Of a DNA stretch of 53,178 nt, positions 8,068 through 33,746 are shown in pieces; the first letter of the stretch is position 1; each line of letters opens with the position of its first letter. The stretch spans positions 1 to 53,178 of the forward strand of contig CACZFN010000009.1 of the NCBI GenBank assembly GCA_902780505.1, given 5' to 3'. Made by a program: the position numbers and the translations under genes. Origin of the DNA: an uncultured Ruminococcus sp. GTDB lineage: Bacteria > Bacillota > Clostridia > Oscillospirales > Ruminococcaceae. Below the pieces are notes generated by a model. It was given only the letters and a program-made list of their open reading frames with translations, ran no database searches and was not told the origin of the DNA.

Positions 8068-8101
8068 ATTATAGCACGGGCTTTGCGCAGAATTTTGAGC
8101 A
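8068..8101 (-). promoter_or_regulatory. Island operator 1 with -10 box
   Basis: The palindrome TGCTCAAAATTCTGCGCA (8084-8101, read on minus) lies 10 bp before TATAAT (8068-8073). It drives the operon 6973-8022, 6370-6951, 5304-6365. No consensus -35 box is present. Confidence 0.85.
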
Positions 8102-8105
8102 TAGG

Positions 8106-8477
8106 TCAGTCTGTTCCAAAAAACCTGTAGTGCCCCGATCCGTCCGCTTTCAGGGTGACATCAGTAATGCCGTTTTCCTCCGTCAGCCCGAAATGCTCTA
8201 TAACGTACTCTTTGAGTATATCCGTGCAGATATACGGCGAGCAGAAAATAAGCGCTTTGCCTCGCCGCAGCTCGACACGCCCGCGGGGATAGTAGTTATA
8301 CGGCACTGTGCCTGTCACTATGTGACTGAGTTTAGCCCACTGCCGCTTGTGATTTATGTCCTTTGGTGTGAGTGCAGTGTCATGCAGAATTCCGTTTTTG
8401 TCCGACTCAAATCTGATCGCGATAATATCCATTTCTTTAAGCGAACGCACCCAGAAAAGTCCTTTATAAATGCTCAT
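8106..8477 (-). CDS. Unknown small protein (123 aa) of the island regulon
   Basis: I do not recognise this 123-residue protein. It starts MSIYKGLFWVRSLKEMDIIAIRF, is soluble-looking, and has a basic middle (YNYYPRGRVELRRGKALIFC). ATG 8477 follows AAGGAGAG; the frame extends to 8540 but that part overlaps the operator. It stands alone as a transcription unit under operator 2 and is co-directional with the operon to its left. An interaction or nucleic-acid-binding role would be speculation. Confidence 0.7.
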   Translation of the reverse strand: MSIYKGLFWVRSLKEMDIIAIRFESDKNGILHDTALTPKDINHKRQWAKLSHIVTGTVPYNYYPRGRVELRRGKALIFCSPYICTDILKEYVIEHFGLTEENGITDVTLKADGSGHYRFFGTD

Positions 8478-8519
8478 GATCACACTCTCCTTAACGATCA
8501 TTTCTTTTTCTGTAAGGAT

Positions 8520-8553
8520 AGTATAACAAAGCGTATGCACAAAATTTTGCGCA
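8520..8553 (-). promoter_or_regulatory. Island operator 2 with -10 box
   Basis: The palindrome TGCGCAAAATTTTGTGCA (8536-8553, minus) lies 10 bp before TATACT (8520-8525). The dyad extends outward to GCGTATGC/GCATACGC (8531-8558), the longest of all the sites. Confidence 0.85.
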
Positions 8554-8567
8554 TACGCTTTTTGTCA

Positions 8568-9356
8568 TTATCTGTTGTAAACTGTATAGAGCGTCCTATC
8601 GCCCGAAAGAATTTTATCAAACGTATAAAGCTCGTTGACGGTGTTATACAGCACGAACACTTTTCTCTGCTCTATCACCGTATCAAGGTGGAAATGTCCG
8701 CAAAACCAGCGTTTATACTGTGCCTGTTCAAGAACCGTGTCAAGAAAGCTTGCCGTTTTGCAGGGCTTTATCTTGTATCGAAATGACGGCACCTCGGCTA
8801 TGACCTTTTCGGGGAGCGTGTGGGTGACTATGTTATCGACCTTAAAGCCGACACGTTCAAGATTTTCAAGCGCACGATTCATTTCATCATCAGTTGCCTC
8901 CTCGCCGCTCCACCAGCTGTAGCCCTCCCTGCGGTAGGCTTTGTCTACACTTGCCGCACCGCCAAAGGCAAAAAAGCTCTCCCCCTCTATTTCATACACC
9001 TCACCACGCATAAGGTGGATAACATTTTCAGCGTGCGGGTGTATTTGTACCGAGCCGCTGAACATCTGCGTTACAGGCTGAGCGCTCCACCAATCGTGAT
9101 TGTCATGATTGCCGTCGATAAATAATATCTTGTAAGGTCTTTAGGCAAGCCATTTTATCCAGAAACGGTAGTCGCTTGCTGTGCTGTCAGGGTGTTCATA
9201 CTCAAATATATCATCGGGCGTGAACGGAAAACCAAAATCACCCGTGATGATAAGATGATCGTTTTCTGTAAGCGTAATTCCAGAGTCTTTGAGCCAGTCA
9301 TCGCTTAGCTTCAGCATATCGACACCGCCGTGGGTGTCGCCTGTAATGTATATCAT
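8568..9356 (-). pseudogene. Calcineurin-like metallophosphoesterase interrupted by a stop codon
   Basis: Two same-frame pieces read as one 262-codon phosphoesterase broken only by TAA at 9141-9143. The first piece has the metal-binding motifs ITGDTHG and ITGDFG. Right after the stop the frame continues RPYKILFIDGNHDNHDWW, which holds the GNHD motif. The second piece holds THTLPE and the CGHFHLD motif. The full set (GDxHG, GDxxG, GNHD, GHxH) is that of a metallophosphatase. A single change, such as AAA or GAA to TAA, would explain the break. Start ATG 9356 follows AGAAGGAGG, 57 bp after addA, so it may be the third gene of the addBA operon. A sequencing error cannot be excluded. Confidence 0.8.
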
Positions 9357-9413
9357 TTTTATCCCTCCTTCTTTTGCAGATCAAACGCTTTGAAAGTGCT
9401 GTTTCATACCGAT

Positions 9414-12400
9414 TTATACATCTATATGATAAATATATGCGTCGGCACTCTCCCCGAGAATAGTTTTAACAGCCGCCTTGTATTCATCAAGCTGACTGCT
9501 GTAGCTTTCTTCAAGGTTCTCGGTTTCGGCGGTCGTTTTATAATCGACAATGCAGAGCTTTCCGTTTTTTTGGTAGATAAGGTCTATCACACCGTTGCAA
9601 AGCTCCTCACTTTCACCGCTTTTGCGCTTGTAGCAAAATGGCACCTCGCACATAGTCTGCGCATCTGAAAGCTCTGTTTTTATGTCGGCAGGGGCGTTGT
9701 TTTTCTGCACATATCCGCCATTCATCACAGTGTCAAATACATTTTCAAGTATCAAAGCATAGCTTTCGTCAGCGCCTATGTCACTAAGTACAGCGTTTAC
9801 CGTACTGCTCCTTTCGGCATTAAACCTCACTGTCACCAGCCGCTCCATAAGCCTGTGAACAAGCGTGCCGATAAGTGCCGCATTTCGCTTTATCGGCGGC
9901 TGATCCTGAGCCCTGATATCCTCACCGTTTTCAGCCTTTGCATTTGCGCTTATCTTTGTATCGTGCGACAGCTTGCTCGGAAGAATAAGAGTGTATGAGC
10001 TTTGCTTTGACACGCATTTTGCAAACAGGTCGGTATGTGTATCATATATATTGCTGACATTTAACGACGGCTTATCTGTGTCTGAATGATCGGGGGTTTC
10101 ATATTCATATTCCTCCTCAGCACGGTTTGAAAGAAAACTCCAGTAATTGCTGCCCTGATAAGGCTTTGCAACGAGCAGAACACTTCTTGCACGGGTAGCA
10201 GCAACGTAGATAAGGCGTTCCTTTTCTGCCACGCCTGCACGAACCTCATCATTATATTCATCACGGAAATATGTATTTGTAACAGCACATTTTTTGCAGT
10301 CAAACACAAAGGTTTGTGCCGAGGTGTCGGTTCTTATCGTTGTCACCTCGGGGGAATGCTCTGACATATCGGGGGCGGCAAGGATAACTATATTTGCCTC
10401 CAGCCCCTTTACCTTGTGAAGATTTGCTATTTTTACGCTGTTTTGTGCAGGCTCAAAGCGCAGGCTGCGCTCCTTTTTGTCATTATTAGAAAAGCTGTAA
10501 AGCAGTTCACACGCTGCCTTGATGCTGCATACACTTCCGTCAGTCTCGCCCGAGCGCAAAAGCTCCCTTGCGTAATAAAGGCTTTCAAGATCATCGGCAC
10601 TTATGTGTGTAAGCAGCTTTAATTCTTCGGTTATCATTCCATACAGCACCGACGGCAGAACGTTATTTGATGCTTTGTAAAGCCTGCATAATGTATCAAA
10701 GGCATCATCAATTCGCCTGTACCCCGTAGGCTTAAATCTTACAAGTGAGATATCAGGCAAAAACGCCGACAGCTCACGCTCATCTATGCCAAAGCACTCA
10801 CCCTTCAGGGCTGCTGCAAGAGCTACCGTATCATCAGGGCATGCAAGTGCCTTGAATACCTTGCAGATCTCAAGAAAGGACGGGCATTTTTCAAGCACCG
10901 AGCCGCCCTCGGCATAGCAGGGAATGCCCTGCATTTTTAGCTCTGTAAGAAGATCTCCTATTATTTTTTTGCCGGGGGTTATTACCATTATATCCTTGTA
11001 TTTTATGCGGCGTATCTCATTGGTCTCTGTGTCTTTAACAAAGCGTCTGCTATCATTTATAAGAGAATGGATAATTTCAGCTACCTTTATGCAGTCAGTT
11101 TCCTTTGAGGTGCTGTAGGAATAAAAGCCTGTCATCACCTTTGAGTCATCACTGCCCTCGGTGGGTATTTCCTCAAACCTGGTCTGAATATCGGTATCCT
11201 TATCAAGCAGCTCGGTAAACAGCCTGTTGAATTCACCCTTGAGCTTATTGGTCGATCGGAAATTGCGTGTGAGTTTAAGCACCTCACCGATTCCGTTTTC
11301 AAAGCGTGTTCTTGTCCTTATAAATGATGCTATATCCGCCCCTCGGAAACGGTATATAGACTGTTTCGGATCGCCTACGATAAAGAGCGTTCCGGGGGCA
11401 GGCTCACACTTTGATACATCGGGATCGGGCTCCTTTGCGGTAAGGTAAAAAAGTATCTGAGTCTGAACAGGATCGGTATCCTGAAACTCGTCTGCAAGGA
11501 AAATTCCGTGACGCTCACGGATATGGCGTATAAGCCTGCCGCCGTTTGCTGCATCATTTTTAAGCATATCACGGAGTAATATCTTTGCATCAAGAAAGCT
11601 CAGCTCGCCCGTGCTTATGCAGTCCTCTGTTATCATTTTAAGTGCAGGCACTACAAGATCGAGTGTCAGGCAGTAGGTATACTCTCTTATCATTTCGTGA
11701 AGGCCTAACCCTGAAAGATCAAGTCTGTAAGCGCCCTTTGGCCGGTCACTCATCTTAAACAGATCACTGCGTTTTATCCCTATCGTTGACGGCTCGCAGG
11801 TCAGAACATAGTTCTTAAAGGAACTAACGATATTCTCTATATCGTTCAGGGTTTCGCTCCAGCTGCCTTTAAGCTTTGGTAATGCGGCTGTATAATCATC
11901 AAGTATCTGAAGATTTGCTGTTTTGTTCCTGCCATTTCCTACATATGCATATTCGGGGTGGCTGATAAGGCATTCCAAAAGCTCTGTGAGCTGTTTTTTT
12001 ATCCCTGCAAAGGCTTTGTTTATGTCCTTCTCATAATCGGGTATCCTGATATCCGAATCCTTTCTTCCCGAGAGGTTTTTTGCAACGGTGACAAAATAAT
12101 ACTTTGGTTTTTCACATACATTTATAAAGCGAATGTATTTATCATACACCTCATCGCTGCAACGATATGAAACTATCTTGTTCCATGCATCATTATAGAT
12201 GTGGTCAAGGTCATTCTCGGCACCGGTCGAAAAGTCGGAGGGAATACCTGCTGTTATCGGATGCTCACGCAGGATAAGCTCGGAGAAAGCATCGATCGTT
12301 CCCATAAAGCAAAGGTCTATGTTATCAAGCGCTTTGCGGTAATTCGCCTTGACATTCTCATCATTTGCGGTCTCCTCAAGCTCTGCGAGCCTTACCTGAA

Positions 12401-12602
12401 ATCTTCCGTAAAACTCCCTTGCAGCCGCCTTTGTAAATGTTATCGCACATATTGTGCTTATATCGGCACCCTTGCCTATAAGGGCCGCCATTCGCTCGAC
12501 AAGCTGTGTGGTCTTGCCCGAGCCTGCACCTGCCTCAACGAATATATTCTTATCTGTCGCAGTTGTAATTCTTTCTCTTGCCTGCTTGTCCATATCGCTC
12601 AT
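9414..12602 (-). CDS. addA: AddA-like helicase-nuclease (UvrD family with C-terminal PD-(D/E)XK)
   Basis: The 1062-residue protein is a superfamily 1A helicase fused to a nuclease. The Q-motif region and Walker A (EAGAGSGKTT, residues 23-32), Walker B/DEFQDTD near 385, FIVGDPKQSIYRFRGAD, and the late helicase motif NLHKVKGLEANIVILA are all visible. The C-terminal nuclease has GVIDLIYQKNGKLCIVDYKT near 1005-1025. It is expected to process double-strand DNA ends with AddB for RecA loading. The start ATG overlaps the AddB stop by 4 bases (ATGA). It is somewhat shorter than typical AddA (about 1200), so a divergent or accessory AddAB is possible. Confidence 0.85.
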   Translation of the reverse strand: MSDMDKQARERITTATDKNIFVEAGAGSGKTTQLVERMAALIGKGADISTICAITFTKAAAREFYGRFQVRLAELEETANDENVKANYRKALDNIDLCFMGTIDAFSELILREHPITAGIPSDFSTGAENDLDHIYNDAWNKIVSYRCSDEVYDKYIRFINVCEKPKYYFVTVAKNLSGRKDSDIRIPDYEKDINKAFAGIKKQLTELLECLISHPEYAYVGNGRNKTANLQILDDYTAALPKLKGSWSETLNDIENIVSSFKNYVLTCEPSTIGIKRSDLFKMSDRPKGAYRLDLSGLGLHEMIREYTYCLTLDLVVPALKMITEDCISTGELSFLDAKILLRDMLKNDAANGGRLIRHIRERHGIFLADEFQDTDPVQTQILFYLTAKEPDPDVSKCEPAPGTLFIVGDPKQSIYRFRGADIASFIRTRTRFENGIGEVLKLTRNFRSTNKLKGEFNRLFTELLDKDTDIQTRFEEIPTEGSDDSKVMTGFYSYSTSKETDCIKVAEIIHSLINDSRRFVKDTETNEIRRIKYKDIMVITPGKKIIGDLLTELKMQGIPCYAEGGSVLEKCPSFLEICKVFKALACPDDTVALAAALKGECFGIDERELSAFLPDISLVRFKPTGYRRIDDAFDTLCRLYKASNNVLPSVLYGMITEELKLLTHISADDLESLYYARELLRSGETDGSVCSIKAACELLYSFSNNDKKERSLRFEPAQNSVKIANLHKVKGLEANIVILAAPDMSEHSPEVTTIRTDTSAQTFVFDCKKCAVTNTYFRDEYNDEVRAGVAEKERLIYVAATRARSVLLVAKPYQGSNYWSFLSNRAEEEYEYETPDHSDTDKPSLNVSNIYDTHTDLFAKCVSKQSSYTLILPSKLSHDTKISANAKAENGEDIRAQDQPPIKRNAALIGTLVHRLMERLVTVRFNAERSSTVNAVLSDIGADESYALILENVFDTVMNGGYVQKNNAPADIKTELSDAQTMCEVPFCYKRKSGESEELCNGVIDLIYQKNGKLCIVDYKTTAETENLEESYSSQLDEYKAAVKTILGESADAYIYHIDV

Positions 12603-15133
12603 TTCTTGTCACCCTCCTTTGTGCAGATGTCCTTATACTCGCAGTATTTGCAGTCACCCTTGCGCTTTGCGGCTGCAAAGCTGTCGTTTTCGATACAGCC
12701 GCCAATTTCATCAAGCAGCTTGATCACAAAATCTCTGCTGTCATTACTGTAGCTGCAGCTTACTTTTTTAGCATCACCCTTTACAAAGCGGTATTCGCCC
12801 ATACTCACCTTCTCACCATCGTTTTCAAGCAAAAAGGCATATAAAAGCACTTGTATGCAGCTTGCAGTGTCATTATCCTTGTATCCGTCTGATTTCCCCG
12901 TTTTATAATCTGCCACAACAACGGCACCGCTTGGCAGCTTTTCAAGTCTGTCAAATCTTCCGCTTACGGTAAAGCCCTTGCTATGCTCAAAATCATGCTT
13001 TTCCTCTGCCTTCATAACTTTATTTTTACTTTCAAAGCGATATGCGTTAAGTGCCATATTTGCAAATTCATTTCGCTGCCTGATCGCCTTGTTTTTGTCT
13101 ATCGGCGGTCTTGAAAGGATAAATCTGTCCCATACCCTGTAAGCCTCATCAATAAACTCCTCCTCGGTGATGTTGTATGCTTCATCTGCAATTCTCCTTT
13201 TGCCGTAAGGCTCCATAAGCTCATCGTGAAAAAGGCTGCCTAATGTGTTTGCGGCTATTACACTCATAGGATCGTCACTTTCAGGCGTTTTAAGCCCGAG
13301 AATGCTTGAATAGTAAAACTCTTTTTGGCAGGCACAGAACGTGCCGACATCAGATACATTTATAGTAATATCTGTTTTGCGCTCTTTAGGAATATCGGGT
13401 TTTACAGCCGTGGTTTTTTCAAGGTCAACGCCCTCGCTGTAGGCTTTGGCGGCTTTATCTGTCACTGAAAACCAGGCAGCAAAATAGCCCTTTGACTCTA
13501 TTGTTTTTTCAAAGTCCTCAGGCTTTGAGTGTTCGCCCATCTGCTCACGCAGCACCTCAAACAAAACTGAGGAGGGGTTGTTTTCCTTTAGCTGCGCCGT
13601 ATCATATCCGCTATAGGAAAGGCGTACCCTGCACCCTGCCGCACCTGCAAGTGCAAGCAGCTCAAAAAAAGCTTTCCTTTTATCACTTATCTGCTTTTCC
13701 GAGGTGTCTGCATTATCATCAAAGCGCAGCATATCCTTATCACAAATAAGATAATTCTCTTTTGCCGCCCCGGGAAATGCTGCTGCCGTAAGCCCTGCGG
13801 CAAAGATGCTTTCACGCAGGCTGACAGAGGCTCTGCTTATATCTGTTATATGCAGGCAGCCCTCACGGCTAAGCTCACTGCATACTCTTGAGTTCATTAC
13901 AGCAGGAAGCATTTCAAGGCATTCATCAGTATCACGGCACGCAGAAAGCGAGCTGCAAATGCTGCTTACCGCCGCCTTATCAAGCACCTTGCAGGCAGGG
14001 CGGATAAAAGCATAGCTGTCTATTATCGCAGCAATTCCCTTTTCAAGCCTATCAAACAGCTTTTTTGCAAGTAAAAGGGCTTTGTAGTTGTCGCTGTCGG
14101 TATCAAGAGTTTCTTTGAGCGCTGATATCTTTTCTGCGTTTTCTTCACTGTCAAGCGACAGACGAAGGTTGCCTGCCACGCTGACAGCTTTATGTAATTC
14201 CTTGCGTGTGCAGGAAAGATCCTCTATAAGCTTGTTGGTATCAAACTCATTTGCAAAGATGACCGAATCAAGCCCGTCAACACCGCACTTGCCATCTGTC
14301 AGCCAGCTTGCTGTAAGCGAAAGAAGTCTTGCAGGCGAGGTGATATTTATGGGCATACCACAACCGAAGGTCATAGGTATCTTATATTCTTCTGACAGCT
14401 CACGCATCATAAGCGGGAGAGATGATGTGTCAGCGCAGGCGACAAGGCATTTGTCAAAAGGCAGACCGCTTTTGACAATTTCATCAAGAATATCCCTTGC
14501 CTCGTTCATTGTGCCAAACGAACGGACCACCCTGCACTCAGCCTTTTTATCATCTTCAAGCCCAAATAAGCCTTGCAGCGTGACAGTTTCAGCCCTGCCG
14601 CCCGAGAGCTTATCAGCAAGCGAATTTGCAAGCGCAGATGCAGGGTATTGCTCCAAAAGCATTATCTCGGTATCAATGGGCTCTGCATTCTCATAAGCAT
14701 ACCTTAAAAAGCCGACAGTATCGCTCAGCCCCTGCGTATCAAGAGATGATAAATATTTTTTATAGACACTGAAAAGTGCTTTATTTGCACCGGGAAACTC
14801 ACCGCCCGAAAGATAGCTTTGCATTATTTGCTGCTCATTTTGGGTTATCATCTCACGCAGTTTTGTAAGCGTGCCAAGCATATTCACCGCATCAGAAAAT
14901 GACGCATTTTCAAAATACGGCGTATCCTTTATTATCCTGTAAAGCAGCGCCTGCGCCTTGCCTGTATCGACAATTTCTCTGTCATAAGCCTTACCGCACT
15001 TCATAAGCGCCCACTGCGCAAGCTCCGCCTCACCCATTATCCTAAGCCCGAAGGTCGGCTGCCCGTATGCTGCAAGTGTGCGCATAAGCTCTGTACCGCT
15101 GACATATGGGGCAAGAAGTATTCTTTCTTTCAT
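12599..15133 (-). CDS. addB: AddB-like nuclease subunit with Fe-S cysteines
   Basis: The 844-residue protein looks like AddB/RexB: a degenerate helicase body and a C-terminal nuclease with GRFDRLE and VVVADYKTGK. A cysteine pair region (FCACQKEFYY) before the nuclease and CKYCEYKDIC at the end could make the iron-sulfur staple known from AddB. ATG 15133 is preceded by a weak GGTGA; a longer frame to 15181 overlaps the promoter. AddB works with AddA on DNA ends in recombination repair and on invading linear DNA. At 844 residues it is short for the family (about 1150), mainly in the N-terminal part. It does not carry the island palindrome. Confidence 0.8.
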   Translation of the reverse strand: MKERILLAPYVSGTELMRTLAAYGQPTFGLRIMGEAELAQWALMKCGKAYDREIVDTGKAQALLYRIIKDTPYFENASFSDAVNMLGTLTKLREMITQNEQQIMQSYLSGGEFPGANKALFSVYKKYLSSLDTQGLSDTVGFLRYAYENAEPIDTEIMLLEQYPASALANSLADKLSGGRAETVTLQGLFGLEDDKKAECRVVRSFGTMNEARDILDEIVKSGLPFDKCLVACADTSSLPLMMRELSEEYKIPMTFGCGMPINITSPARLLSLTASWLTDGKCGVDGLDSVIFANEFDTNKLIEDLSCTRKELHKAVSVAGNLRLSLDSEENAEKISALKETLDTDSDNYKALLLAKKLFDRLEKGIAAIIDSYAFIRPACKVLDKAAVSSICSSLSACRDTDECLEMLPAVMNSRVCSELSREGCLHITDISRASVSLRESIFAAGLTAAAFPGAAKENYLICDKDMLRFDDNADTSEKQISDKRKAFFELLALAGAAGCRVRLSYSGYDTAQLKENNPSSVLFEVLREQMGEHSKPEDFEKTIESKGYFAAWFSVTDKAAKAYSEGVDLEKTTAVKPDIPKERKTDITINVSDVGTFCACQKEFYYSSILGLKTPESDDPMSVIAANTLGSLFHDELMEPYGKRRIADEAYNITEEEFIDEAYRVWDRFILSRPPIDKNKAIRQRNEFANMALNAYRFESKNKVMKAEEKHDFEHSKGFTVSGRFDRLEKLPSGAVVVADYKTGKSDGYKDNDTASCIQVLLYAFLLENDGEKVSMGEYRFVKGDAKKVSCSYSNDSRDFVIKLLDEIGGCIENDSFAAAKRKGDCKYCEYKDICTKEGDKK

Positions 15134-15172
15134 ATTATCACCATGCTTTCTGTCAGATCTGTGCTTATTTTT

Positions 15173-15201
15173 ATTATACACTCTATTCCCTTGTTTGTAA
15201 A
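15173..15201 (-). promoter_or_regulatory. addBA promoter
   Basis: TTTACA (15196-15201), a 17-bp spacer and TATAAT (15173-15178) on the minus strand. This is an ordinary housekeeping-type promoter with no island palindrome. Confidence 0.7.
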
Positions 15202-16964: not shown

Positions 16965-17014
16965 ATTTTACCATATACATTGCTCAGAATTCTGCACATC
17001 ACAGCCGCTATAAT
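16965..17014. promoter_or_regulatory. Island operator 3, shared by two divergent promoters
   Basis: The palindrome TGCTCAGAATTCTGCACA (16981-16998) lies 10 bp before TATAAT (17009-17014) on plus and 10 bp before TAAAAT (16965-16970) on minus. The two -10 boxes are exactly symmetric about it. It serves hen1-pnkp to the right and the coiled-coil gene to the left. Confidence 0.9.
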
Positions 17015-17091
17015 ATACTTACAGACTACTTAACAGCATATACAAAATATGATACAGTGCAAAGTTAAGAAAAATGAAGGGAGAGATGATC

Positions 17092-18468
17092 TTGCTTTTA
17101 ACAATAACCTATGAAGGAACTAACACACCAGAGCTTGGTTTCCTTTTACATAAAAATCCTGCGAGGGCGCAGCAGTTTGAGCTGAATTTCGGCAAGGCAT
17201 ATGTTTTCTATCCCGAGGTGAGTGATAATAAAACAACTGCGGCACTGCTGCTTGACATTGACACGCTTGATCTTGCAAGGGGCAAGGTCGGCAGCAAGGA
17301 CGGCGGACTTTTTGATTATGTAAATGACCGCCCCTATGCGTCAACGTCATTTATGAGTACGGCTATCGCAAGAGTTTTCGGAACGGCGATGAGTGGAAAA
17401 TGCGAAAAGCGTCAAACACTTGCCGGCACGCCGCTAAAGCTTACTGCAACGCTTTACTCACTTAAAGACAACGGCGATATAACTCTTGCAAACGAGCTTT
17501 TTGAGCCGCTTGGATATACTGTGACTACCGGGCGTACAAGGCTTGATGAGAACTTCCCGATGTGGGGCATCTCACCTTATATCGACCTGACGATAAGCGG
17601 AAAAGTACGGCTGTCGGAACTGCTTGGTCATCTGTATGTACTGATACCTGTTTTTGATAAGCAAAAGCATTACTACTTTACCGAGGACGAGATAAAAAAG
17701 CTGCTTAATCACGGCGAGGGCTGGCTTGCAGACCACCCGAGCAGAGAGAAGATAGTACGCAGATATTTTACAGCAAGAAAAAGCTATGCAAGAAAGGCGC
17801 TTGACATTCTGCTCGCTGACGAAGATAATAATGAGAACGAGAACGAGAAGGCAAAGGAAGAAAAAGAGATACGAACACCACTTAACACTCAGCGTTTAGA
17901 GGCAGTTAAAAACGAGGTCATCGCAAGCGTTATAGACCTCGGGTGCGGCGAGTGCAGGCTCACATCAATGCTTTTGAGCGAGCCGCAGATAAAAAAAGTC
18001 ACTGCCTGCGACGTATCAGTCACCGAGCTTGAAAAGGCGGCAAAGCGTCTGCACCTTAACACTATGAACACTCACCGCAAAAACAAGCTCACGCTTATGC
18101 AGGCATCACTTACATATAAAGATAAACGCTTTGAGGGCTTTGACTGCGCCTGTGTTATCGAAGTCATCGAGCATATTGAGCCTGCGAGGATACCTGCGTT
18201 TGAGCGTGCGGTGTTTGAATTTGCATCACCTAAAACAGTAATACTCACAACACCAAACAGAGAATACAACAAAAATTACAAGTTTATGCAGGAAAATGCC
18301 CTCCGCCACGGCGACCACCGCTTTGAGTGGACAAGGGCGGAGTTTAAGGAATGGACAGAGCATATCTGCAAAAATTTCGGCTACACCTGCGAGATAAGCG
18401 GAATTGGCGATGAGGACGAAAGCCTCGGCACACCGACACAGATGGGGGTGTTTATAAGAAATGGATAA
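17092..18468 (+). CDS. hen1: Hen1-type 3'-terminal RNA ribose 2'-O-methyltransferase
   Basis: The product marks repaired RNA by 2'-O-methylating the 3' end at the break before Pnkp seals it, which protects against repeat cleavage (family knowledge). The 458-residue protein has the typical N-terminal domain starting MLLTITYEGTNTPELGFLLHK and a C-terminal SAM-methyltransferase with IDLGCGECRL near 280. The metal-binding EVIEH motif and the later RHGDHRFEW motif are also present. I chose the TTG at 17092, not the ATGs at 17074 or 17086, because the protein then begins as in the family and AGGGAGAG is well spaced. It overlaps pnkp by 8 bp and is read from operator 3. Confidence 0.92.
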   Translation: MLLTITYEGTNTPELGFLLHKNPARAQQFELNFGKAYVFYPEVSDNKTTAALLLDIDTLDLARGKVGSKDGGLFDYVNDRPYASTSFMSTAIARVFGTAMSGKCEKRQTLAGTPLKLTATLYSLKDNGDITLANELFEPLGYTVTTGRTRLDENFPMWGISPYIDLTISGKVRLSELLGHLYVLIPVFDKQKHYYFTEDEIKKLLNHGEGWLADHPSREKIVRRYFTARKSYARKALDILLADEDNNENENEKAKEEKEIRTPLNTQRLEAVKNEVIASVIDLGCGECRLTSMLLSEPQIKKVTACDVSVTELEKAAKRLHLNTMNTHRKNKLTLMQASLTYKDKRFEGFDCACVIEVIEHIEPARIPAFERAVFEFASPKTVILTTPNREYNKNYKFMQENALRHGDHRFEWTRAEFKEWTEHICKNFGYTCEISGIGDEDESLGTPTQMGVFIRNG

Positions 18469-21921: not shown

Positions 21922-21955
21922 AGTATAGCAAAGGCTATGCGCAAAATTCTGTGCA
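21922..21955 (-). promoter_or_regulatory. Island operator 4 with -10 box
   Basis: TGCACAGAATTTTGCGCA (21938-21955, minus) lies 10 bp before TATACT (21922-21927), upstream of the phosphatase-like gene. Confidence 0.85.
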
Positions 21956-21995: not shown

Positions 21996-23648
21996 TCACT
22001 TCTTATTCTTTGTTTTTCCGTACCTTTCATTTACCGATACCCTGCACTCGGGCAGCATTGCACAAAGCTCCTCTTTCTTTTCATCACTTATCCTGCAATT
22101 GCCTGCTCTGAATACTTTAAGGTCTTTAAATTCTTTTAAAAAGCTCAGATCTCCTTCAAGGTCAAAGCCTTCAAGAGTTATTCTTTGAAGATGTTGCATA
22201 TCCTTTAAAAACTCTATGCTGCCAAGCTCCTTGCCTTTTATGAATTCTGAAGGGCGGCGGCCAAATTCACCGAAAAACACCTCAATGCTTTCAAGGCCTT
22301 TCATTTTGTTGATGTCTTTAAGCCCGTCATTGTCTGCACCTGTTATGGATAAGGCATCTATATTCTGCTTGTCTGTAAGATAGGCTGTGTCGAATTTGCA
22401 CCTTGCAAGCCTTAATGATGTTACATTTTCAAGACCGTCAAGGTAATCTATCCCACGCAGGTCGGTGTCAAAAAACGTCAGATGCGAAAGTGTGTCTATC
22501 TCCCTGAGCCTTTTTATCTGCCCGGGAGTGCCGTTTCTGAGATCGAACCGTCTGCGCTTTTGTGAGATTGCAAGCTTGAACAGCTCATCAAAATCAATAA
22601 GCATAATTCTTCTCTCTTTAGGTATCTTCATGATATGGCTGTGCTGTATACCCTTGCGCAGCATTTCTTCAAGCTGCTTGTTAAAGCTTTCATTTCCAAG
22701 CACCGTCACCATATCAAGCATCGGCAGCATTGCAAGGCGCAGGTTGTTGGGCGTAGTCTTGACCTTTATTACCGTGCGGAAATCATCATTCTCGGGGTTT
22801 ACAGTATCCTTTCTTATCTCACCGCCGACTCTTTCGACAAACTCGGAAAGAACATCATTGTCCACTCTCACCGTGAACGTTTCGGGCAGCCCGCCGCCGA
22901 GAGTCGGTGAAAGCTTAATATATTCCTCCAAAGTCCCTCTTTCCTTAAACCCCGGTATAGTCGAGAGAGGACGTCGTTTTTCATCTGTCACAGTCACATT
23001 AGTGGTCCTGTCAAGTGACATTTCAGACAGAGTGTCCTCGCCGTCAACAGCGCAGATCATCACATACCTGTTGTTTGAGATTACAAGCTCGTAAGGACTT
23101 GCAAGCACTCCTGCTGTCGGGTATTTGCGATACCATGCAAGATCCTCTTTAAGTATCTTGTAATTGAGCCTTACCTTTTTGTTTTCCGCTATCGCAGTCT
23201 TGATCTCCTCATAGTTAAAGATAAGATCTTTGCCCTTTTTACCCGAATAATTATTCATTCTTGAAATGAAATACTTTTTATCCTTTTTTATCTTTTCCGT
23301 CCCGAAATATAACAGCTTGTCGATTATCTCCTCAGCATTGTCTGCCGAGATAGCATTTGTGTATATAAGGCTGTCGATAAGCACGGCTATCTCACTGTCT
23401 TCAAATTCCTTTTCATCAAGCACATAGTTTTTCTTAGGATCGGCGTAAAAGCCCGCCTCGTTCAGAGTATTGAGATGCTTTCTGAGTGTATTTCGTGAGA
23501 TCTTCAAGCCGTATTCACGCTCTATCTCCTCACACATCTCCTCCTGTGTCAGAGTGCGACTCTCCGAAGTAAAGCGCCTGAGATAATCAAGAACGATGAG
23601 CAGAGCCCCTTCCTTGTACAAAAATTCAGCGTGTCTGAGATCATTCAT
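21996..23648 (-). CDS. WYL-domain transcription regulator with C-terminal leucine-rich repeats
   Basis: The 550-residue protein has an N-terminal winged helix (about 1-70, with ISRNTLRKHLNTLNEAGF as the recognition region). A WYL domain follows at about 150-265, with ASPYELVISNNRYVMICAVDGE and the SLDRTTNV arginine, then a WCX-like domain (about 270-385) and a C-terminal region of about 150 residues with LRR-like strands (LSHLTFF, LENVTSLRLARCKF, LQRITLEGF, LKVFRAGNCRI). WYL domains bind ligands such as single-stranded DNA or nucleotides (known for DriD and for CapW/BrxR). ATG 23648 follows AAGGAGG. Its own promoter carries the island palindrome, so it is the best candidate regulator of the regulon and is probably autoregulated. 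Confidence 0.85.
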   Translation of the reverse strand: MNDLRHAEFLYKEGALLIVLDYLRRFTSESRTLTQEEMCEEIEREYGLKISRNTLRKHLNTLNEAGFYADPKKNYVLDEKEFEDSEIAVLIDSLIYTNAISADNAEEIIDKLLYFGTEKIKKDKKYFISRMNNYSGKKGKDLIFNYEEIKTAIAENKKVRLNYKILKEDLAWYRKYPTAGVLASPYELVISNNRYVMICAVDGEDTLSEMSLDRTTNVTVTDEKRRPLSTIPGFKERGTLEEYIKLSPTLGGGLPETFTVRVDNDVLSEFVERVGGEIRKDTVNPENDDFRTVIKVKTTPNNLRLAMLPMLDMVTVLGNESFNKQLEEMLRKGIQHSHIMKIPKERRIMLIDFDELFKLAISQKRRRFDLRNGTPGQIKRLREIDTLSHLTFFDTDLRGIDYLDGLENVTSLRLARCKFDTAYLTDKQNIDALSITGADNDGLKDINKMKGLESIEVFFGEFGRRPSEFIKGKELGSIEFLKDMQHLQRITLEGFDLEGDLSFLKEFKDLKVFRAGNCRISDEKKEELCAMLPECRVSVNERYGKTKNKK

Positions 23649-23679: not shown

Positions 23680-23713
23680 ATTATAACGTGTGTTATGCAC
23701 AAAATTTTGCGCA
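23680..23713 (-). promoter_or_regulatory. Island operator 5 with -10 box, at the WYL regulator gene
   Basis: TGCGCAAAATTTTGTGCA (23696-23713, minus) lies 10 bp before TATAAT (23680-23685). The site core is identical to operator 2. Confidence 0.9.
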
Positions 23714-23823: not shown

Positions 23824-23878
23824 ATATTTGACAGATTCTCCCCATAATCTTGACGATATTGGTCAAATATGCTATAAT
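23824..23878 (+). promoter_or_regulatory. Promoter of the nuclease gene with inverted repeat
   Basis: TTGACG (23850-23855), a 17-bp spacer and TATAAT (23873-23878). A 9-bp inverted repeat ATATTTGAC (23824-23832)/GTCAAATAT (23862-23870) flanks the -35 box. This is unlike the island palindrome and suggests separate control. Confidence 0.7.
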
Positions 23879-25697: not shown

Positions 25698-25731
25698 ATT
25701 ATACTGCTGTTTATGCACGAAATTCTGAGCA
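25698..25731 (-). promoter_or_regulatory. Island operator 6 with -10 box
   Basis: TGCTCAGAATTTCGTGCA (25714-25731, minus; one mismatch in the right half) lies 10 bp before TATAAT (25698-25703). Confidence 0.8.
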
Positions 25732-25795
25732 TACTATCTGATATGCTTGACCTAAGGAGATTGTTGCCTGATCCCGATCCTGCATCAGGCATATA

Positions 25796-26358: not shown

Positions 26359-27012
26359 TCAAATATATGTGATATGCTTTTTGTGATACTCTATAAACTC
26401 ACCCGGTTCAAAATGCCGCAGCTCGCCGAAATCGGAGTGCATCAGTTTGAGCAGCGCTGCTGTTCTTGCTTGTGTGTTAAGGCTCCGTTTCGGGTTGAAT
26501 TCAATGTCGGTAAAATGGTCAAAGTCTGCAAGACGGGAGATCTCATCAGCAATCAGCGATTCCATGACGGCATTCAGGTAGATGTAGTCATAGAATACAG
26601 TCTTAGGCAGCAGAGGAAATCTGATGCCTTTATACTCAAATTTTGTCAGCTTAAAGCCTGCGGAATGAAGTGCGCCTGCCGCAGCCTTTGCCTCCTTCGG
26701 GTGGAGCGAGAGCCATTCGGTGTGGGGCTTTCCCGAACCGTCATCAAATACCTTAGATGACTGGAACACGCACTCCAGCGGATAGCCGTCAAGCGTCAGG
26801 TTGAAGGCACTCAGCTTTACACCGAGCGGCTCGGTGCTTTTGGTGCTTACTTCCAGCGGACGTGCATCTGAAACGAGTGCCCTTATTGCACTGTGCAGAC
26901 TGCCCACAGACTTCTGCTTCTGACTTGATGAAAACCCCGCAAACCATTCAAACTCAACATCACGCTCGCAAATTTTTCCGCCTGAGATGTAATAAACAGG
27001 TCTTACTGCCAT
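26359..27012 (-). CDS. Conserved unknown protein, DUF6977-like
   Basis: The 217-residue protein has the pattern RPVYY...EFEWFAGFSSSQKQKSVGSLH near the N-terminus, LGVKLSAFNL and FQSSKVFDDG in the middle, and FYDYIYL then FTDIEFNPKRSLNTQARTAAL near the end. I recall this as a conserved family of unknown function, probably DUF6977, from memory and without a search. The invariant-looking blocks with Trp, Asp, Asn and Arg suggest an enzyme rather than a structural protein. ATG 27012 follows a GGAGG-type site. It is controlled by operator 7, opposite the unit under operator 8. Confidence 0.7.
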   Translation of the reverse strand: MAVRPVYYISGGKICERDVEFEWFAGFSSSQKQKSVGSLHSAIRALVSDARPLEVSTKSTEPLGVKLSAFNLTLDGYPLECVFQSSKVFDDGSGKPHTEWLSLHPKEAKAAAGALHSAGFKLTKFEYKGIRFPLLPKTVFYDYIYLNAVMESLIADEISRLADFDHFTDIEFNPKRSLNTQARTAALLKLMHSDFGELRHFEPGEFIEYHKKHITYI

Positions 27013-27074: not shown

Positions 27075-27108
27075 ATAATATCATACTTTATGCACAGAAT
27101 TTTGTGCA
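27075..27108 (-). promoter_or_regulatory. Island operator 7 with -10 box
   Basis: TGCACAAAATTCTGTGCA (27091-27108, minus) lies 10 bp before TATTAT (27075-27080). Confidence 0.8.
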
Positions 27109-27167: not shown

Positions 27168-27201
27168 TGCCCAATTTTCTGCGCACGATGTATGTTATCA
27201 T
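27168..27201 (+). promoter_or_regulatory. Island operator 8 with -10 box
   Basis: TGCCCAATTTTCTGCGCA (27168-27185) lies 10 bp before TATCAT (27196-27201). One of the weaker palindromes. It faces right, away from operator 7, with 59 bp between the two. Confidence 0.7.
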
Positions 27202-28059: not shown

Positions 28060-28092
28060 TGCGCAAAAATCGTGCATACAAAGTGATATAAT
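28060..28092 (+). promoter_or_regulatory. Island operator 9 with -10 box (17-bp variant)
   Basis: TGCGCAAAAATCGTGCA (28060-28076) is one base shorter in the centre than the others but still ends exactly 10 bp before TATAAT (28087-28092). Confidence 0.75.
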
Positions 28093-28124
28093 ACAGACAG
28101 CTGAGAATGAAAGGAGAGATCATT

Positions 28125-29784: not shown

Positions 29785-29790
29785 TAAAAA

Positions 29791-29819: not shown

Positions 29820-29843
29820 ACATTTTAAGCTCCATTTAGGCAA

Positions 29844-29877
29844 TGCGCAGTTTTTTGTGCATCACCTTTGCTATTAT
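29844..29877 (+). promoter_or_regulatory. Island operator 10 with -10 box
   Basis: TGCGCAGTTTTTTGTGCA (29844-29861) lies 10 bp before TATTAT (29872-29877). The outer halves are kept and the centre is asymmetric. Confidence 0.75.
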
Positions 29878-29968
29878 ATATACAGAAACAAAAAGTACAA
29901 CGTTAGAAAGCTTTATCACTGCCGGCAAAGCAATAAAACGTAACGGAGATCCAAAGGAGGAAACAAAC

Positions 29969-31975
29969 ATGATCTGCTACAGGATAATCATTGAGCTTGA
30001 CAAACCTATCCCGACTGTTAAAAACGACCGTGGCAGAAAAGAGTATGATGACGAGATCGTAAGCGGCATCAATAATGCACTTGCCGAATACAATAGAAAA
30101 TACTGCGGCAGAAGATGTGCATTTATTTATCAGAACACCAAAAACAAGCTGTCGCTCGGCTTTGTTCTCTCCGACACAACAGCTCTTAGTGACGCTCTCG
30201 GTGAGCTTATGTATATGGCAGGTATATCCGGCAAAACAGAGCAGGAGGAGATCACTGTCAGGGCGCTTGACAGACTGGCAAACATGAGATTCAGGAATGA
30301 ATTTGAATTTGACAGCGATGACCTCTATGCTCTGGGCATAAGATGCCTTACTAACACACATTGCCCACCTGAGGAAAAAATTGCCCGGGAGTATACATAC
30401 GATCAGCTAAAAAGATCTGCCGAGCTTGGTCTTTACGATGAGAGCTTTGAGCAGGAGGTGGACCGTATTGTTTATCCGGCTGCTGTCGAGAATGCAAAGG
30501 GACACCCCGTACATTATATAATACGTTCCGGCAGTCCCCTGAAGGTATGCGACGGGCTGATAGATACACTTTACAGATTTGGAAGGCTCAGATCCCGGCG
30601 TTATACCGTTATAGGTCTGCATCAGTTTATAAACGGCTTTCAAGCAGAGGGGATCTTCAGGATAGCCAAGGGCGGAACGGTGGTTTTTGACCTTTCAAAT
30701 ATGGAGGAGCAGCAGAATAACACAGCGACTTCAAATATGCTGCCGAATGAACTCTATGATCTGATAAAAGAGCATAAGCACACAACGCTGATCATTTTTG
30801 CACTGCCAAACTGCCTTGAAACTCAGGCAGAAAAGATAAAGATCGCCCTGCCGGAGCTTACCTTTGTAGAGATAAGTGAGCGTCTTGCGATGAATAACGA
30901 TGCAAAAAAGCTGCTGCGTGCCTTTGCAAAAGCTGATAAAGTCAAGACCGACAAAGAATTGCTGTCTGCCGTGGCGAAAGACACGGGGTACTATGCAAAC
31001 GATCTGCGTCAGCTTTACGACGTGTGGTACACAAACACTTTGAAAACCAAGATCTATCCGCAGTATTCAGAGTTTAAGAAGAATGTGGAGCTTGACAAGA
31101 CTGTCACTCCCGTGGGTGATGCCTACTCAAAGCTCTCGGAAATGATCGGGCTTAAAGAAGTCAAGAAACTAATTGAGCAGGCAGTGACCTATTCAAAGAT
31201 ACAGAAAACACTCGCAGAGAGAGGTATGTCCAATTCAAAGCGTGCTATGCACATGGTTTTTTCGGGCGCACCAGGCACTGCGAAAACCACCGTTGCAAGA
31301 CTTTTCGCACAGATACTCAAGGACAACGAGGTGCTGTCTGTGGGTGATCTGATCGAGTGCGGAAGAAAGGATCTTGTAGGTCAGTATGTCGGCTGGACGG
31401 CGGTTCAGGTAAAAAATATGTTTCGCAAAGCCAAAGGCTCTGTGCTTTTCATCGACGAGGCATATTCACTGCTTGATGACAAAAAAGGCAGCTTCGGTGA
31501 CGAGGCTATAAACACTATCGTTCAGGAAATGGAGAATACCCGTGAGGACACGGTGGTGATCTTTGCGGGCTACCCAAAGGAAATGAACGAATTTATAGAG
31601 CGCAATCCCGGACTGCGTTCACGCATAACCTTCTATGTTGATTTTCCGGATTACAGTGCTGCCGAGCTTTTTGACATAACAAAGCTGATCGTCAAAAACA
31701 ACGGCTGCAAATTATCAGAGAATGCATCAGATGTGCTTATCCCGATGTTTGAAAAAGCTGCTCAGTCCGGCGATTTCGGCAACGGAAGATACGCAAGAAA
31801 CCTTGTTGAGCAGGCACAGCTTGCACAAGCTATGAGGCTCTCAAAACGTGATCTCGGAAGACTTTCAGGTGATGACCTTTTGACACTTACCGGAGAGGAC
31901 TTTGCAGAGATAAGTACGAACGCAATAAAAGAGAATGTACCCGACCGAAGAAGGATAGGGTTTATGGCAGGGTGA
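29969..31975 (+). CDS. CbxX/SpoVK-type AAA+ ATPase with unusual N-terminal half
   Basis: The 668-residue protein ends in one good AAA+ module: Walker A GAPGTAKTT near 432, Walker B VLFIDEAYSL near 491, and the arginine region NPGLRSRI. This is the CbxX/CfqX/SpoVK/EccA class, which forms hexamers and remodels proteins. The first ~230 residues are unrecognised. The middle (about 190-310, HPVHYIIRSG ... GGTVVFDLSN) looks like a second, degenerate ATPase domain without a Walker A lysine. ATG 29969 follows AAAGGAGG. It is the first gene of the rightmost large unit, under operator 10. Confidence 0.85.
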   Translation: MICYRIIIELDKPIPTVKNDRGRKEYDDEIVSGINNALAEYNRKYCGRRCAFIYQNTKNKLSLGFVLSDTTALSDALGELMYMAGISGKTEQEEITVRALDRLANMRFRNEFEFDSDDLYALGIRCLTNTHCPPEEKIAREYTYDQLKRSAELGLYDESFEQEVDRIVYPAAVENAKGHPVHYIIRSGSPLKVCDGLIDTLYRFGRLRSRRYTVIGLHQFINGFQAEGIFRIAKGGTVVFDLSNMEEQQNNTATSNMLPNELYDLIKEHKHTTLIIFALPNCLETQAEKIKIALPELTFVEISERLAMNNDAKKLLRAFAKADKVKTDKELLSAVAKDTGYYANDLRQLYDVWYTNTLKTKIYPQYSEFKKNVELDKTVTPVGDAYSKLSEMIGLKEVKKLIEQAVTYSKIQKTLAERGMSNSKRAMHMVFSGAPGTAKTTVARLFAQILKDNEVLSVGDLIECGRKDLVGQYVGWTAVQVKNMFRKAKGSVLFIDEAYSLLDDKKGSFGDEAINTIVQEMENTREDTVVIFAGYPKEMNEFIERNPGLRSRITFYVDFPDYSAAELFDITKLIVKNNGCKLSENASDVLIPMFEKAAQSGDFGNGRYARNLVEQAQLAQAMRLSKRDLGRLSGDDLLTLTGEDFAEISTNAIKENVPDRRRIGFMAG

Positions 31976-32039
31976 TAATTATGTTAATTTAAAGCAAAGG
32001 AAAACCAGTTCTCCGAGGTCGCAAAGCTCGGGGAAGAGA

Positions 32040-32129
32040 ATGAGTGAAGAATACTCTGAGTCTGTAAAAGTCTATGCGGGCGCCTCTGCCAAACTCGCAG
32101 CATACAAAGAATGGAGAGAACATAAATGA
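32040..32129 (+). CDS. Short ORF or gene remnant (29 aa)
   Basis: MSEEYSESVKVYAGASAKL and a short basic tail, stopping in an ATGA overlap with the next gene. A different frame just upstream reads KENQFSEVAKLGEENE and stops at the same place, so this may be the frameshifted end of an older gene. It has a weak GGGGAAGAG site. Confidence 0.35.
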   Translation: MSEEYSESVKVYAGASAKLAAYKEWREHK

Positions 32130-32590
32130 ACATCAGAGAATACCTTCTGACCTTTGATATTATTGAGCTTTACGATGAGCTTTTCAAGGTGTTTGAAAAC
32201 TGCGGTCAGACAGTAACAGCAGGGCGGACGCAGTTTTACAGGTTTATCAAAGAGATAAAAGCGACTAAGCCCATACTCTCACAAGGCGTGATATGCACAC
32301 GTCCCTGTGACGATGACACCTATGACGTTTTCGTAAAAGAGCCCGGTGATGATGAAAATTACTCTCTGCTGTTTATAAAATGGGAGGAGATCCTCGGGTA
32401 TTCGGCAGATGAGGAAAGCATCGCTCTCTGCGGCAGGCTGAATTATGCCGTTTGGGTGTTATGGGAAATGACATGGTTCGGCTTTACAAATAAAGAAAAT
32501 GAGGCAGCAATATCAGACATTGAAAATGATACCGAAGACACAGAAGATATTACCGACCTTGAAGGCTATTTTGCTGCTTTGGAGTCTTAG
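32126..32590 (+). CDS. Unknown acidic protein (154 aa), possibly DUF6557-like
   Basis: The protein begins MNIREYLLTFDIIELYDEL, has a conserved-looking KWEEILGYS segment in the middle and AVWVLWEMTWFGF near 113-125, and ends in a long acidic tail (ENDTEDTEDITDLEG). The opening and the W-E-E-x-L-G segment remind me of DUF6557, which I give from memory only. It overlaps the short ORF by ATGA and lies in the unit behind operator 10 between the AAA+ ATPase and the ~350-residue paralogue. Soluble; no enzyme motif seen. Confidence 0.65.
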   Translation: MNIREYLLTFDIIELYDELFKVFENCGQTVTAGRTQFYRFIKEIKATKPILSQGVICTRPCDDDTYDVFVKEPGDDENYSLLFIKWEEILGYSADEESIALCGRLNYAVWVLWEMTWFGFTNKENEAAISDIENDTEDTEDITDLEGYFAALES

Positions 32591-32630
32591 GAGATCATGG
32601 ATAGTAAAAAACCTATGAAAGGAGCAGACA

Positions 32631-33674
32631 ATGGATAGCACGGTTTTATCATTTATAGATTCAAAAGCAATAAGGGAGCATATCAAAAGCACAGGCTATG
32701 TGTTCACCCCTGCGGAGCAGGCAGTGCTTATTTCACGAAGCTATGAACACTCTGTCAAGGAAAAGCTCGAGGCACTGGAATATATACTCAAAACATACTC
32801 AGAAAAAGAGCTTGGCAGTGAGAAGGTGGGAATGTTCGATTTTGATGAGCGTGAAAGAATGCCTTTTCGTAAAAGGCTGAGGGCGTACATTGAAGGAGTA
32901 AGAGCATCTGTTGTATTGGGGCAGGCTGGTATAGAAGATGGCTATTGTTTTTTTACATCTGAGTGTGAAAAAGGCTATGACCATTGCGAGCATGACACAA
33001 GGTGTTATAAAAGGTATGCAGACGCACATAAATATCTGCGTGAGCGTAAAAAAGAAAACTCGGAGAATAACTGCAAATATGAATACAGGATAACCATACA
33101 ACCGTTTGGAGAGGACGGAGAGCTGTATCATATCTACGACAATGATCTCCGCCTTATTTATGCCGACACAGTGCTTCCAAATGATGATGAACTGCCGATA
33201 CTTGATATAAGCGAGTATTATGTGTATGTTCCGCTGCCGTTCAAAAAGGGTGAGATAGTGAAGATCAAAAAAAGGGGAAGTTACAGCTTTGGTGATGACT
33301 ATGCCGTATTCACATTTCCCGATGATGAAACCGATGATAGGTTTATAAGAATACTTGCCCGTCACCGTCGGAACGGCGACTATTCGGATATGTGTATCCC
33401 CCTGACTTATTTCATACCCGACAGAAGCCACACCTGCGGCGGTGCGTTCTGGTACGATCACTTCGATGCTCTCCTCCTTGATTCCTGCGATGAGAGCGAC
33501 CTTGACAGGATCGAATACGGAACTAAATATTTTGCCGCCGCACTTGATGAGAACAGCGGATATGATATGTGGGACCTTATGCTTGACTATTCTCACGGCG
33601 ATTTCAAGGACAGGAAGGTGTACTTTGATGCCGAGGAGTATCTGAGGGAGAAGTTTAGGAAGACAATAAAATGA
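32631..33674 (+). CDS. Unknown ~350-residue island-family protein, copy 3
   Basis: The 347-residue protein of unknown function is the close relative of copy 1 (5304-6365). They share FIDSKAIR, EQAVLI, EKVGMF, the Y-Y-V-x-(V/L)-P-L-x-FKKG(E/D)IV block, LDISEYY/LDISQYY and a D-Y-SHG motif near the C-terminus. It lies at the right end of the island in the opposite orientation to copy 1. The middle FPDDETDD and SDxCD acidic stretches could hold metal but are not a known site. ATG 32631 follows a GAAAGGAG site. It is probably the last gene of the operon led by the AAA+ ATPase. Confidence 0.8.
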   Translation: MDSTVLSFIDSKAIREHIKSTGYVFTPAEQAVLISRSYEHSVKEKLEALEYILKTYSEKELGSEKVGMFDFDERERMPFRKRLRAYIEGVRASVVLGQAGIEDGYCFFTSECEKGYDHCEHDTRCYKRYADAHKYLRERKKENSENNCKYEYRITIQPFGEDGELYHIYDNDLRLIYADTVLPNDDELPILDISEYYVYVPLPFKKGEIVKIKKRGSYSFGDDYAVFTFPDDETDDRFIRILARHRRNGDYSDMCIPLTYFIPDRSHTCGGAFWYDHFDALLLDSCDESDLDRIEYGTKYFAAALDENSGYDMWDLMLDYSHGDFKDRKVYFDAEEYLREKFRKTIK

Positions 33675-33712
33675 GCTGGTGCAAAAAGTCGTCCTTCGGG
33701 CGGCATTTTTTG

Positions 33713-33746
33713 TGCGCAGAAAATTGCGCAGGCGATGTGTTACAAT
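33713..33746 (+). promoter_or_regulatory. Island operator 11 with -10 box
   Basis: TGCGCAGAAAATTGCGCA (33713-33730) lies 10 bp before TACAAT (33741-33746). It precedes the last two genes of the island. Confidence 0.8.

Follow-up and report, generated by a model that had tools for sequence, protein, structure and literature searches.

Positions 1 to 53,178 of contig CACZFN010000009.1 from an uncultured Ruminococcus sp. (assembly GCA_902780505.1), referred to below as the window, contain between positions 8068 and 33746 an island of genes whose common theme is nucleic-acid repair and in which 12 promoters share a palindromic element located exactly 10 bp from a TATAAT-like -10 hexamer. The island also encodes a probable regulator, named here WYL-LRR (P0001), which combines a helix-turn-helix-like start with a WYL domain and C-terminal leucine-rich repeats (LRR). 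We consider it likely, with a probability of roughly 0.7, that this protein activates a nucleic-acid-damage regulon in a DriD-like way and would do so by binding at the palindrome, over the -35 position. The site, its spacing, its restriction to the island, its conservation, its co-occurrence with the regulator and the protein family of the latter were computed. The regulator gene and the promoters of the island are listed below; unless stated otherwise, each promoter consists of the palindrome, a 10-bp spacer and the hexamer given.

21996..23648, minus strand: WYL-LRR gene (550 amino acids).
8068..8101, minus strand: TATAAT; upstream of 6973-8022, 6370-6951 and 5304-6422.
8520..8553, minus strand: TATACT; upstream of a small gene ending at 8106.
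16965..16998, minus strand: TAAAAT, on the minus side of the bidirectional palindrome; precedes 15243-16934 and, further on, possibly addB/addA.
16981..17014, plus strand: TATAAT, plus side of the bidirectional palindrome; upstream of hen1-pnkp.
21922..21955, minus strand: TATACT; upstream of the phosphatase-like gene 21104-21868.
23680..23713, minus strand: TATAAT; upstream of the WYL-LRR gene, which is probably autoregulated.
25698..25731, minus strand: TATAAT; upstream of 25263-25670.
25714..25747, plus strand: candidate thirteenth promoter, weaker, with TATGCT at 10 bp and TGA before the hexamer; without a clear gene behind it.
27075..27108, minus strand: TATTAT; upstream of the NADAR gene.
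27168..27201, plus strand: TATCAT; upstream of 27290-27787.
28060..28092, plus strand: 17-bp palindrome, 10 bp to TATAAT, model expectation value (E) of 0.00135; upstream of 28107-29054 and an alpha/beta hydrolase gene.
29844..29877, plus strand: TATTAT; upstream of the AAA ATPase gene (start near 29969), 32126-32590 and 32631-33674.
33713..33746, plus strand: TACAAT; upstream of 33801-34133 and the LRR_5 gene 34144-34794.
23850..23878, plus strand: contrast promoter, canonical TTGACG-17-TATAAT; unit 23918-25213, without a palindrome promoter of its own.

The 12 promoters derive from 11 palindromes, the one at 16981 being bidirectional. Among the 22 flanks of these sites, a hexamer with at most one mismatch from TATAAT was present 12 times at exactly 10 bp and at most twice at any other offset between 0 and 44; with two mismatches allowed and TA...T kept, 13 flanks carried the hexamer at offset 10 and at most four at any other offset. 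The fixed 10-bp spacing that the first-pass annotation had proposed was accordingly found in all 12 promoters of the window. The palindrome extends from -40 to -23, with its centre at -31.5. A TG dinucleotide occupies positions -15/-14 in nine of the 12 promoters and a G position -14 in 11 of them. In a pool of 44 promoters from six genomes, TG was found in 32, G-14 in 36 and a T at -17 likewise in 36. This pool was defined by a palindrome matrix score of at least 20 together with a TA...T hexamer, which takes in the plus side of 25714 and a site on contig C43 of the window genome and leaves out the 17-bp site 28060 as well as a site of genome G101 (L074:10175, TTTCAT, score at least 20); being selected on TA...T, it is no evidence for the -10 box itself. 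A TG-type element corresponds to the extended -10 of Gram-positive sigma-A promoters, and extended -10 promoters can work without a -35 element. A match of at least four of six positions to TTGACA at 15-19 bp, which 21.5% of random positions reach, was present in none of the 44 pooled promoters, the best match comprising two positions in 30 promoters and three in 14. The reported lack of a consensus -35 box is thereby confirmed, but it does not count as independent evidence because the palindrome itself fills those positions.

Independent evidence does come from the canonical -35 box of the unit 23918-25213, which contrasts with the palindrome promoters within the island. This unit is also the clear exception to the earlier statement that the sites precede almost every unit. 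Its product of 431 amino acids has neither a Pfam match nor a match in the searched stretches of the relatives, and the unit is perhaps a later insertion. Additionally, a TTTACA-17-TATAAT arrangement at 15173-15201 on the minus strand, just upstream of the AddB-like gene, might be a separate addB-addA promoter. AddB may thus have a promoter of its own, and in the window genome its dependence on the site at 16965 is uncertain.

At each of the 11 coordinates given in the first-pass annotation lies a palindrome-like element that has TG and CA at its two ends. The consensus TGCNCA-RAATTY-TGNGCA quoted there proved too tight: five of the 11 sites match it exactly (8084, 8536, 21938, 23696 and 27091), 16981 and 25714 deviate by one mismatch, 27168, 29844 and 33713 by two, and the 17-bp site 28060 was not recovered by a consensus search within three mismatches. 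At up to three mismatches the window contained 10 matches, compared with a mean of 1.45 and a maximum of four in shuffled sequences, none of 100 shuffles reaching 10. Across the whole genome (2.82 Mb, 51 contigs) the consensus occurred at 11 places with up to two mismatches, 10 of them inside the island, and a reversed-pattern control at the same stringency gave no match in the genome. The motif is thus not equally dense elsewhere; equal density would have spoken against a regulon. The single place outside the island, C31:831, was dismissed, as a matrix scan of the locus (L143) yielded no promoter match there.

A weak site outside the island was observed at C43:3706 (L142, 3706-3739), with palindrome arms and a TATAAT at +10 (E=0.009). 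It sits behind a gene of 1017 amino acids whose start resembles isoleucyl-tRNA synthetase as read from the sequence, and no clear target gene was recognized; the site may be a chance occurrence or a further target of the regulon.

Full-length homologues of WYL-LRR were found in five other genomes in a search of 396 genomes of the family. An order-level search of 394 genomes listed no further genome with a homologue covering both halves of the protein, and three further loci with such homologues are those of Ruminococcus albus AR67, the uncultured Ruminococcus RUG11233 and Ruminococcus RGIG6565. A palindrome matrix trained on the window palindromes only was applied to the five genomes and then to the three further loci, and sites were found around the full-length WYL-LRR gene in all eight. 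At a threshold of 14 the five genomes contained 28 palindromes, 23 of which were accompanied by a -10 box at exactly +10 to one side or both (25 flanks), with at most four at other offsets; the corresponding numbers were 23 of 30 at threshold 12 and 29 of 38 at threshold 10. At all three thresholds no offset besides +10 exceeded five, and the background amounted to 141 of 28,000 random positions (0.5%). Threshold 10 was used for the three further loci, where the +10 spacing was seen in 12 of 15 palindromes (L147 three of four, L148 two of three, L153 seven of eight; L147 and L148 are close kin), and other offsets did not exceed two. The expectation that related genomes carry such sites 10 bp from -10 boxes was borne out for most sites. 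Many of the genes behind these sites are homologous to island genes of the window, in a partly different order, and some have no match in the window. The site lies directly upstream of the WYL-LRR gene in seven of nine genomes (window, G006, G309, G363, L147, L148 and L153) and further upstream in G101 and G005. The site before the AAA gene reads TGCGCA...TGTGCA in the window, TGCGTA...TACGCA in G309 and L153 and TGCGTA...TATGCA in G101; in these three relatives a C-G pair is swapped symmetrically for T-A and the palindrome is kept.

The WYL domain of P0001 was recognized by the PADLOC WYL model (E=2.5e-12, residues 146-332), the Pfam WYL model matched three of six aligned members but not P0001, and the LRR matches sit in the C-terminal part. 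Among the 20 island open reading frames scanned with Pfam, only that of WYL-LRR gave a helix-turn-helix match (HTH_20, below the cut-off); its N-terminal region is predicted to form helices that align along DriD in the modelled structure. A profile of 21 homologues matched PafBC (7.7e-9) and chains of DriD (about 2e-8 to 9e-8); among the best 60 of 149 matches, many LRR proteins ranked above them. A structure predicted from 21 sequences reached a mean predicted local distance difference test score (pLDDT) of 79.2 and a predicted template modelling score (pTM) of 0.40; a single-sequence prediction was poor (mean pLDDT 48.8) and was not used. In a Foldseek search with the alignment-based model, the first 11 rows were DriD and PafBC, and internalin LRRs followed from rank 14. 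The window genome contains two WYL matches at E<=1e-10, located on different contigs (C9 and C30), which does not fit a heterodimer-forming paralogue pair as in PafBC.

The co-occurrence of the motif with WYL-LRR was examined with a 34-position model including palindrome, spacer and -10 box, since the simple pattern with two mismatches was too noisy, 57 of 61 relatives having a match. At E<=0.01, matches in the 61 genomes fell in the window genome G000 (all 12 promoters as well as the C43 site, the latter over positions 3-34) and in G006; the 58 genomes with no full-length WYL-LRR among the matches listed, at most three candidates being scored per genome, gave three full-length model matches, one each in G022, G010 and G052. 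The WYL-LRR genome G005 scored weakly because its palindrome has drifted to TGTGCA...TGCACA, and the other five WYL-LRR genomes had strong matches on the contig of the regulator. Strong matches were also located on short contigs with more island genes (G006 C113 and G101 C139) and on G101 C47, where no window gene was matched. Hen1 was detected in 18 of the 396 family genomes; in 13 of these the family search found no full-length WYL-LRR. The Hen1 and Pnkp proteins of these 13 genomes are 55-82% identical to those of the window, and their Hen1-Pnkp regions (3.2-20 kb each, 231 kb in total) contained no promoter match at a matrix score of 15 and 11 palindrome-like stretches at a score of 10, none with a -10 box at +10. 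The motif does not follow hen1-pnkp. In G005, G101, G006 and G309 no site was present in the stretch around hen1, which probably belongs to longer units in these genomes.

A different repeated sequence, TGCTCG-AAAATC-CGCACA, was noted at L221 2889, 9272 and 14475 on a 14.6-kb contig of G147, a genome without WYL-LRR. The three copies, one of them reversed, surround hen1-pnkp and have no -10 box at +10; this palindrome-like sequence is perhaps the site of another regulator.

The geometry can be compared with that of known WYL regulators. In DriD, a homodimeric WYL activator of Caulobacter crescentus (structures 8tp8, 8tpk, 9pfq and 9pfv) of the same fold family as WYL-LRR, the sites overlap the -35, keep an invariant distance to the -10 and are accompanied by a conserved G-14 (PMC12340889); in the three promoter DNAs printed there the 19-bp site ends 9 bp before the hexamer, with G-14 in all three, and the palindrome centre read from them lies at about -31. 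Both systems share a pseudo-palindrome of about 19-20 bp over the -35, a poor -35 box, a constant distance to the -10, G-14 (here in 36 of 44 promoters) and one bidirectional site. They differ in the spacing of 10 bp here as against about 9 bp (centre -31.5 versus about -31) and in the C-terminal LRR, the different palindrome, the near-consensus -10 boxes and the clustered repair island of WYL-LRR. Moreover, the WYL-LRR gene has its own site, whereas DriD does not regulate itself.

PafBC of mycobacteria (PMC11804915; 9fnd and 6sj9) is likewise a WYL activator that works with the housekeeping polymerase by sigma adaptation, but it is a heterodimer with a site near -24 contacted by PafB alone and is described as unable to bind without polymerase. 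SiwR of Mycobacterium smegmatis, a homodimeric WYL activator under genotoxic stress, also uses a 19-bp imperfect palindrome upstream of the -10, which is described as lying between -35 and -10, and has one known target operon (PMC10693628). The WYL repressors CapW and BrxR of phage-defence loci (PMC9122588 and PMC9122601) are dimers on inverted repeats as well, with the CapW operator overlapping the -10 and the BrxR operator downstream of it, whereas the palindrome of the island ends 10 bp upstream of the -10 (12 of 12). RtcR, the activator of the rtcBA RNA-repair operon, is damage-responsive and is turned on by tRNA fragments as well as upon DNA damage (PMC7790460); it differs in its CARF domain, sigma-54 dependence (PMC4012209), single operon and other repair enzymes. 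Neither 'leucine-rich' nor 'LRR' occurs in the main text of PMC4012209, and literature searches, which left most subscription journals outside their coverage, returned no paper on a WYL-LRR regulator, this motif or the transcriptional control of hen1-pnkp. This kind of regulator is known; what appears new in the literature searched is the WYL-LRR fusion, together with the promoter set and the repair island of several operons.

In the mechanism that we favour, a dimer of the island's own WYL-LRR would bind the palindrome, cover the -35 position at the fixed distance to the -10 and recruit or anchor the sigma-A polymerase, as DriD does in Caulobacter, while the usually extended (TGn) -10 would supply the remaining polymerase contact. 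A signal that probably arises from damaged nucleic acids might be sensed by the WYL or the LRR part, upon which the island units including the regulator gene would be switched on together.

Several observations weigh against this activator model. That WYL-LRR binds the palindrome, that it activates and what it senses are steps that we infer. A single-sequence search with P0001 found no WYL structure, the TM-scores of the DriD and PafBC rows were low (0.15-0.43) with uncertain domain placement (pTM 0.40), and CapW and BrxR appeared at ranks 19 and 36 of the Foldseek listing, so that the fold does not tell an activator from a repressor. PafB binds single-stranded DNA through R211/R214; in the RxDR element of WYL-LRR, equated with this pair by spacing and not by an alignment to PafB, the first arginine is S, Y or F in seven of eight rows (window S-L-D-R; L147 and L148 Y-L-D-R; L149-L151 Y-I-D-K; L153 F-I-D-K; L152 R-V-D-R), a lack of conservation that departs from the comparison with DriD, and a single-stranded DNA signal may not carry over because this arginine is mostly lost. 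The extended -10 (TG in 32 of 44) together with near-consensus -10 boxes could give activity without any activator. In the relatives, five of 28 and three of 15 palindromes lack a -10 at +10, and G005 reached a best E of only 0.14 under the window model, with two of seven matches in the island. At E<=1e-10 the 13 motif-free Hen1-Pnkp regions contain none of the other island genes either, and co-occurrence therefore does not distinguish between WYL-LRR and the remainder of the island. Finally, fixed-length and centre-distance scans of 64 of 67 loci around WYL homologues (L179 and L180, which repeat included loci, and L185 were left out) revealed no general excess at the +10 position.

Only L158 stood out in that scan, and it is itself WYL plus LRR: this distant homologue from an uncultured Clostridia member has WYL, LRR and WCX matches above the Pfam cut-offs and an FtsK-gamma-like end below. 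Palindromes of the type TGTACC-N6-SGTACA occur there twice only in 20.8 kb, each exactly 10 bp from a TATAAT, at 9746-9779 before the regulator gene and at 11777-11810 before the next gene, AAA-like by reading of its sequence; a looser scan added an AT-rich palindrome with the same centre, apparently a chance match. Since it was noticed after the fact in an otherwise negative scan, L158 is a lead and not a proof.

The extended -10 elements are the main ground for the opposite mode of action, in which the promoters need no -35 and a WYL-LRR dimer at -40 to -23 would block the polymerase until a damage signal arrives. The TG and G-14 frequencies and the near-consensus -10 boxes of the pooled promoters agree with it, as do the repressing function of the defence-associated relatives CapW and BrxR and the site before the regulator's own gene, an arrangement common for repressors. 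A steric block, however, needs no single-base precision in nearly all promoters of several genomes, and the operators of CapW and BrxR lie on or downstream of the -10 and not over the -35, whereas the geometry found here is that of the activator DriD; the position of the palindrome thus speaks for activation, and we regard a repressor as unlikely. The argument that a missing -35 implies an activator is weaker than stated in the first-pass annotation, because most promoters have an extended -10, whereas the part of its proposal that concerns one regulator at a fixed position is well supported by the 23 of 28 and 12 of 15 spacings and by the DriD geometry. Activation is the most plausible reading of the data.

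It is improbable, in turn, that a different transcription factor, with its gene elsewhere in the genome, binds the palindrome. In that case WYL-LRR would be one more target, with a site before its gene as before any other, and the motif indeed accompanies the island as a whole no less than WYL-LRR; yet motif and WYL-LRR occur together, no other scanned open reading frame of the island has a helix-turn-helix match, and L158 keeps the geometry though its palindrome sequence differs. Descent of all promoters from recent copies of one cassette, which would explain the spacing without functional constraint, is very improbable: some window spacers are alike (tacgctttgt, tagcctttgc and tcacctttgc), but the remaining spacers and flanks differ, the spacing holds in diverged genomes and the symmetric C-G to T-A change upstream of the AAA gene preserves the palindrome.

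With hen1-pnkp in the island and by analogy to RtcR, RNA ends are a fair guess for the signal of WYL-LRR. Going further, we tentatively propose, as a less likely possibility, that WYL-LRR might be the founding member of a class of activators in Clostridia whose signal is RNA damage, such as cleaved tRNA, rather than single-stranded DNA, and which bind over the -35 in the manner of DriD and switch on a multi-operon RNA and DNA repair island as a sigma-A counterpart of RtcR, with the geometry being kept while the palindrome sequence changes between lineages, as in L158. The position of a WYL activator on its promoter has been detailed structurally for very few proteins; nine genomes with dozens of natural promoters and one spacing make the rule that a WYL dimer centred near -31.5 activates testable and usable for regulon prediction. 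The data also tie Hen1-Pnkp RNA repair to a regulon shared with DNA repair and an enzyme of ADP-ribose reversal, and suggest a single response to both RNA and DNA damage in these gut bacteria.

The genes of the island with recognizable families are the following.

17074..18468, plus strand: Hen1 of bacterial RNA repair (Pfam Hen1_L, E=1.1e-94).
18461..21043, plus strand: Pnkp of bacterial RNA repair (Pfam PNKP_ligase, E=3.3e-166; AAA_33; Metallophos).
9414..12602, minus strand: AddA-like helicase-nuclease (NCBIfam recB 4.9e-63 and addA 9.5e-62, both below the model cut-offs).
12599..15181, minus strand: AddB-like nuclease subunit (Cas4- and AddB-type matches, below the NCBIfam cut-offs).
26359..27012, minus strand: NADAR protein of the DarT1-antitoxin type (Pfam NADAR-DarT1, E=1.2e-58).
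29969..31975, plus strand: AAA ATPase related to SpoVK/CbbX (NCBIfam matches below the cut-off).

The Hen1_L domain adjoins the Pnkp kinase-phosphatase-ligase, as in the Hen1-Pnkp system, and the window genome yielded no second full-length match to the AddA-like protein. A dual-specificity phosphatase was indicated by a weak Pfam match, and several other island proteins were without a family. Three related proteins of about 350 amino acids (5304-6422, 6973-8022 and 32631-33674) have no Pfam match and have homologues in most islands of the relatives. The products of 28107-29054 and 21104-21868 are related to each other, one with a CX5R phosphatase-type motif and the other seemingly without it as read from the sequence, and several copies exist in the relatives. 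In the relatives the site also precedes a gene for a PHP-domain protein resembling DNA polymerase III alpha (G005 and G101) and a gene for an SNF2-type helicase (G101); the PHP-domain genes, L138 14424-16970 and L073 9260-11539, might encode a repair polymerase of the regulon. Just to the right of the island, 35654-37027 on the minus strand encodes a serine recombinase-like protein as judged by its sequence, and because this gene adjoins the island, the latter may have arrived by site-specific integration.

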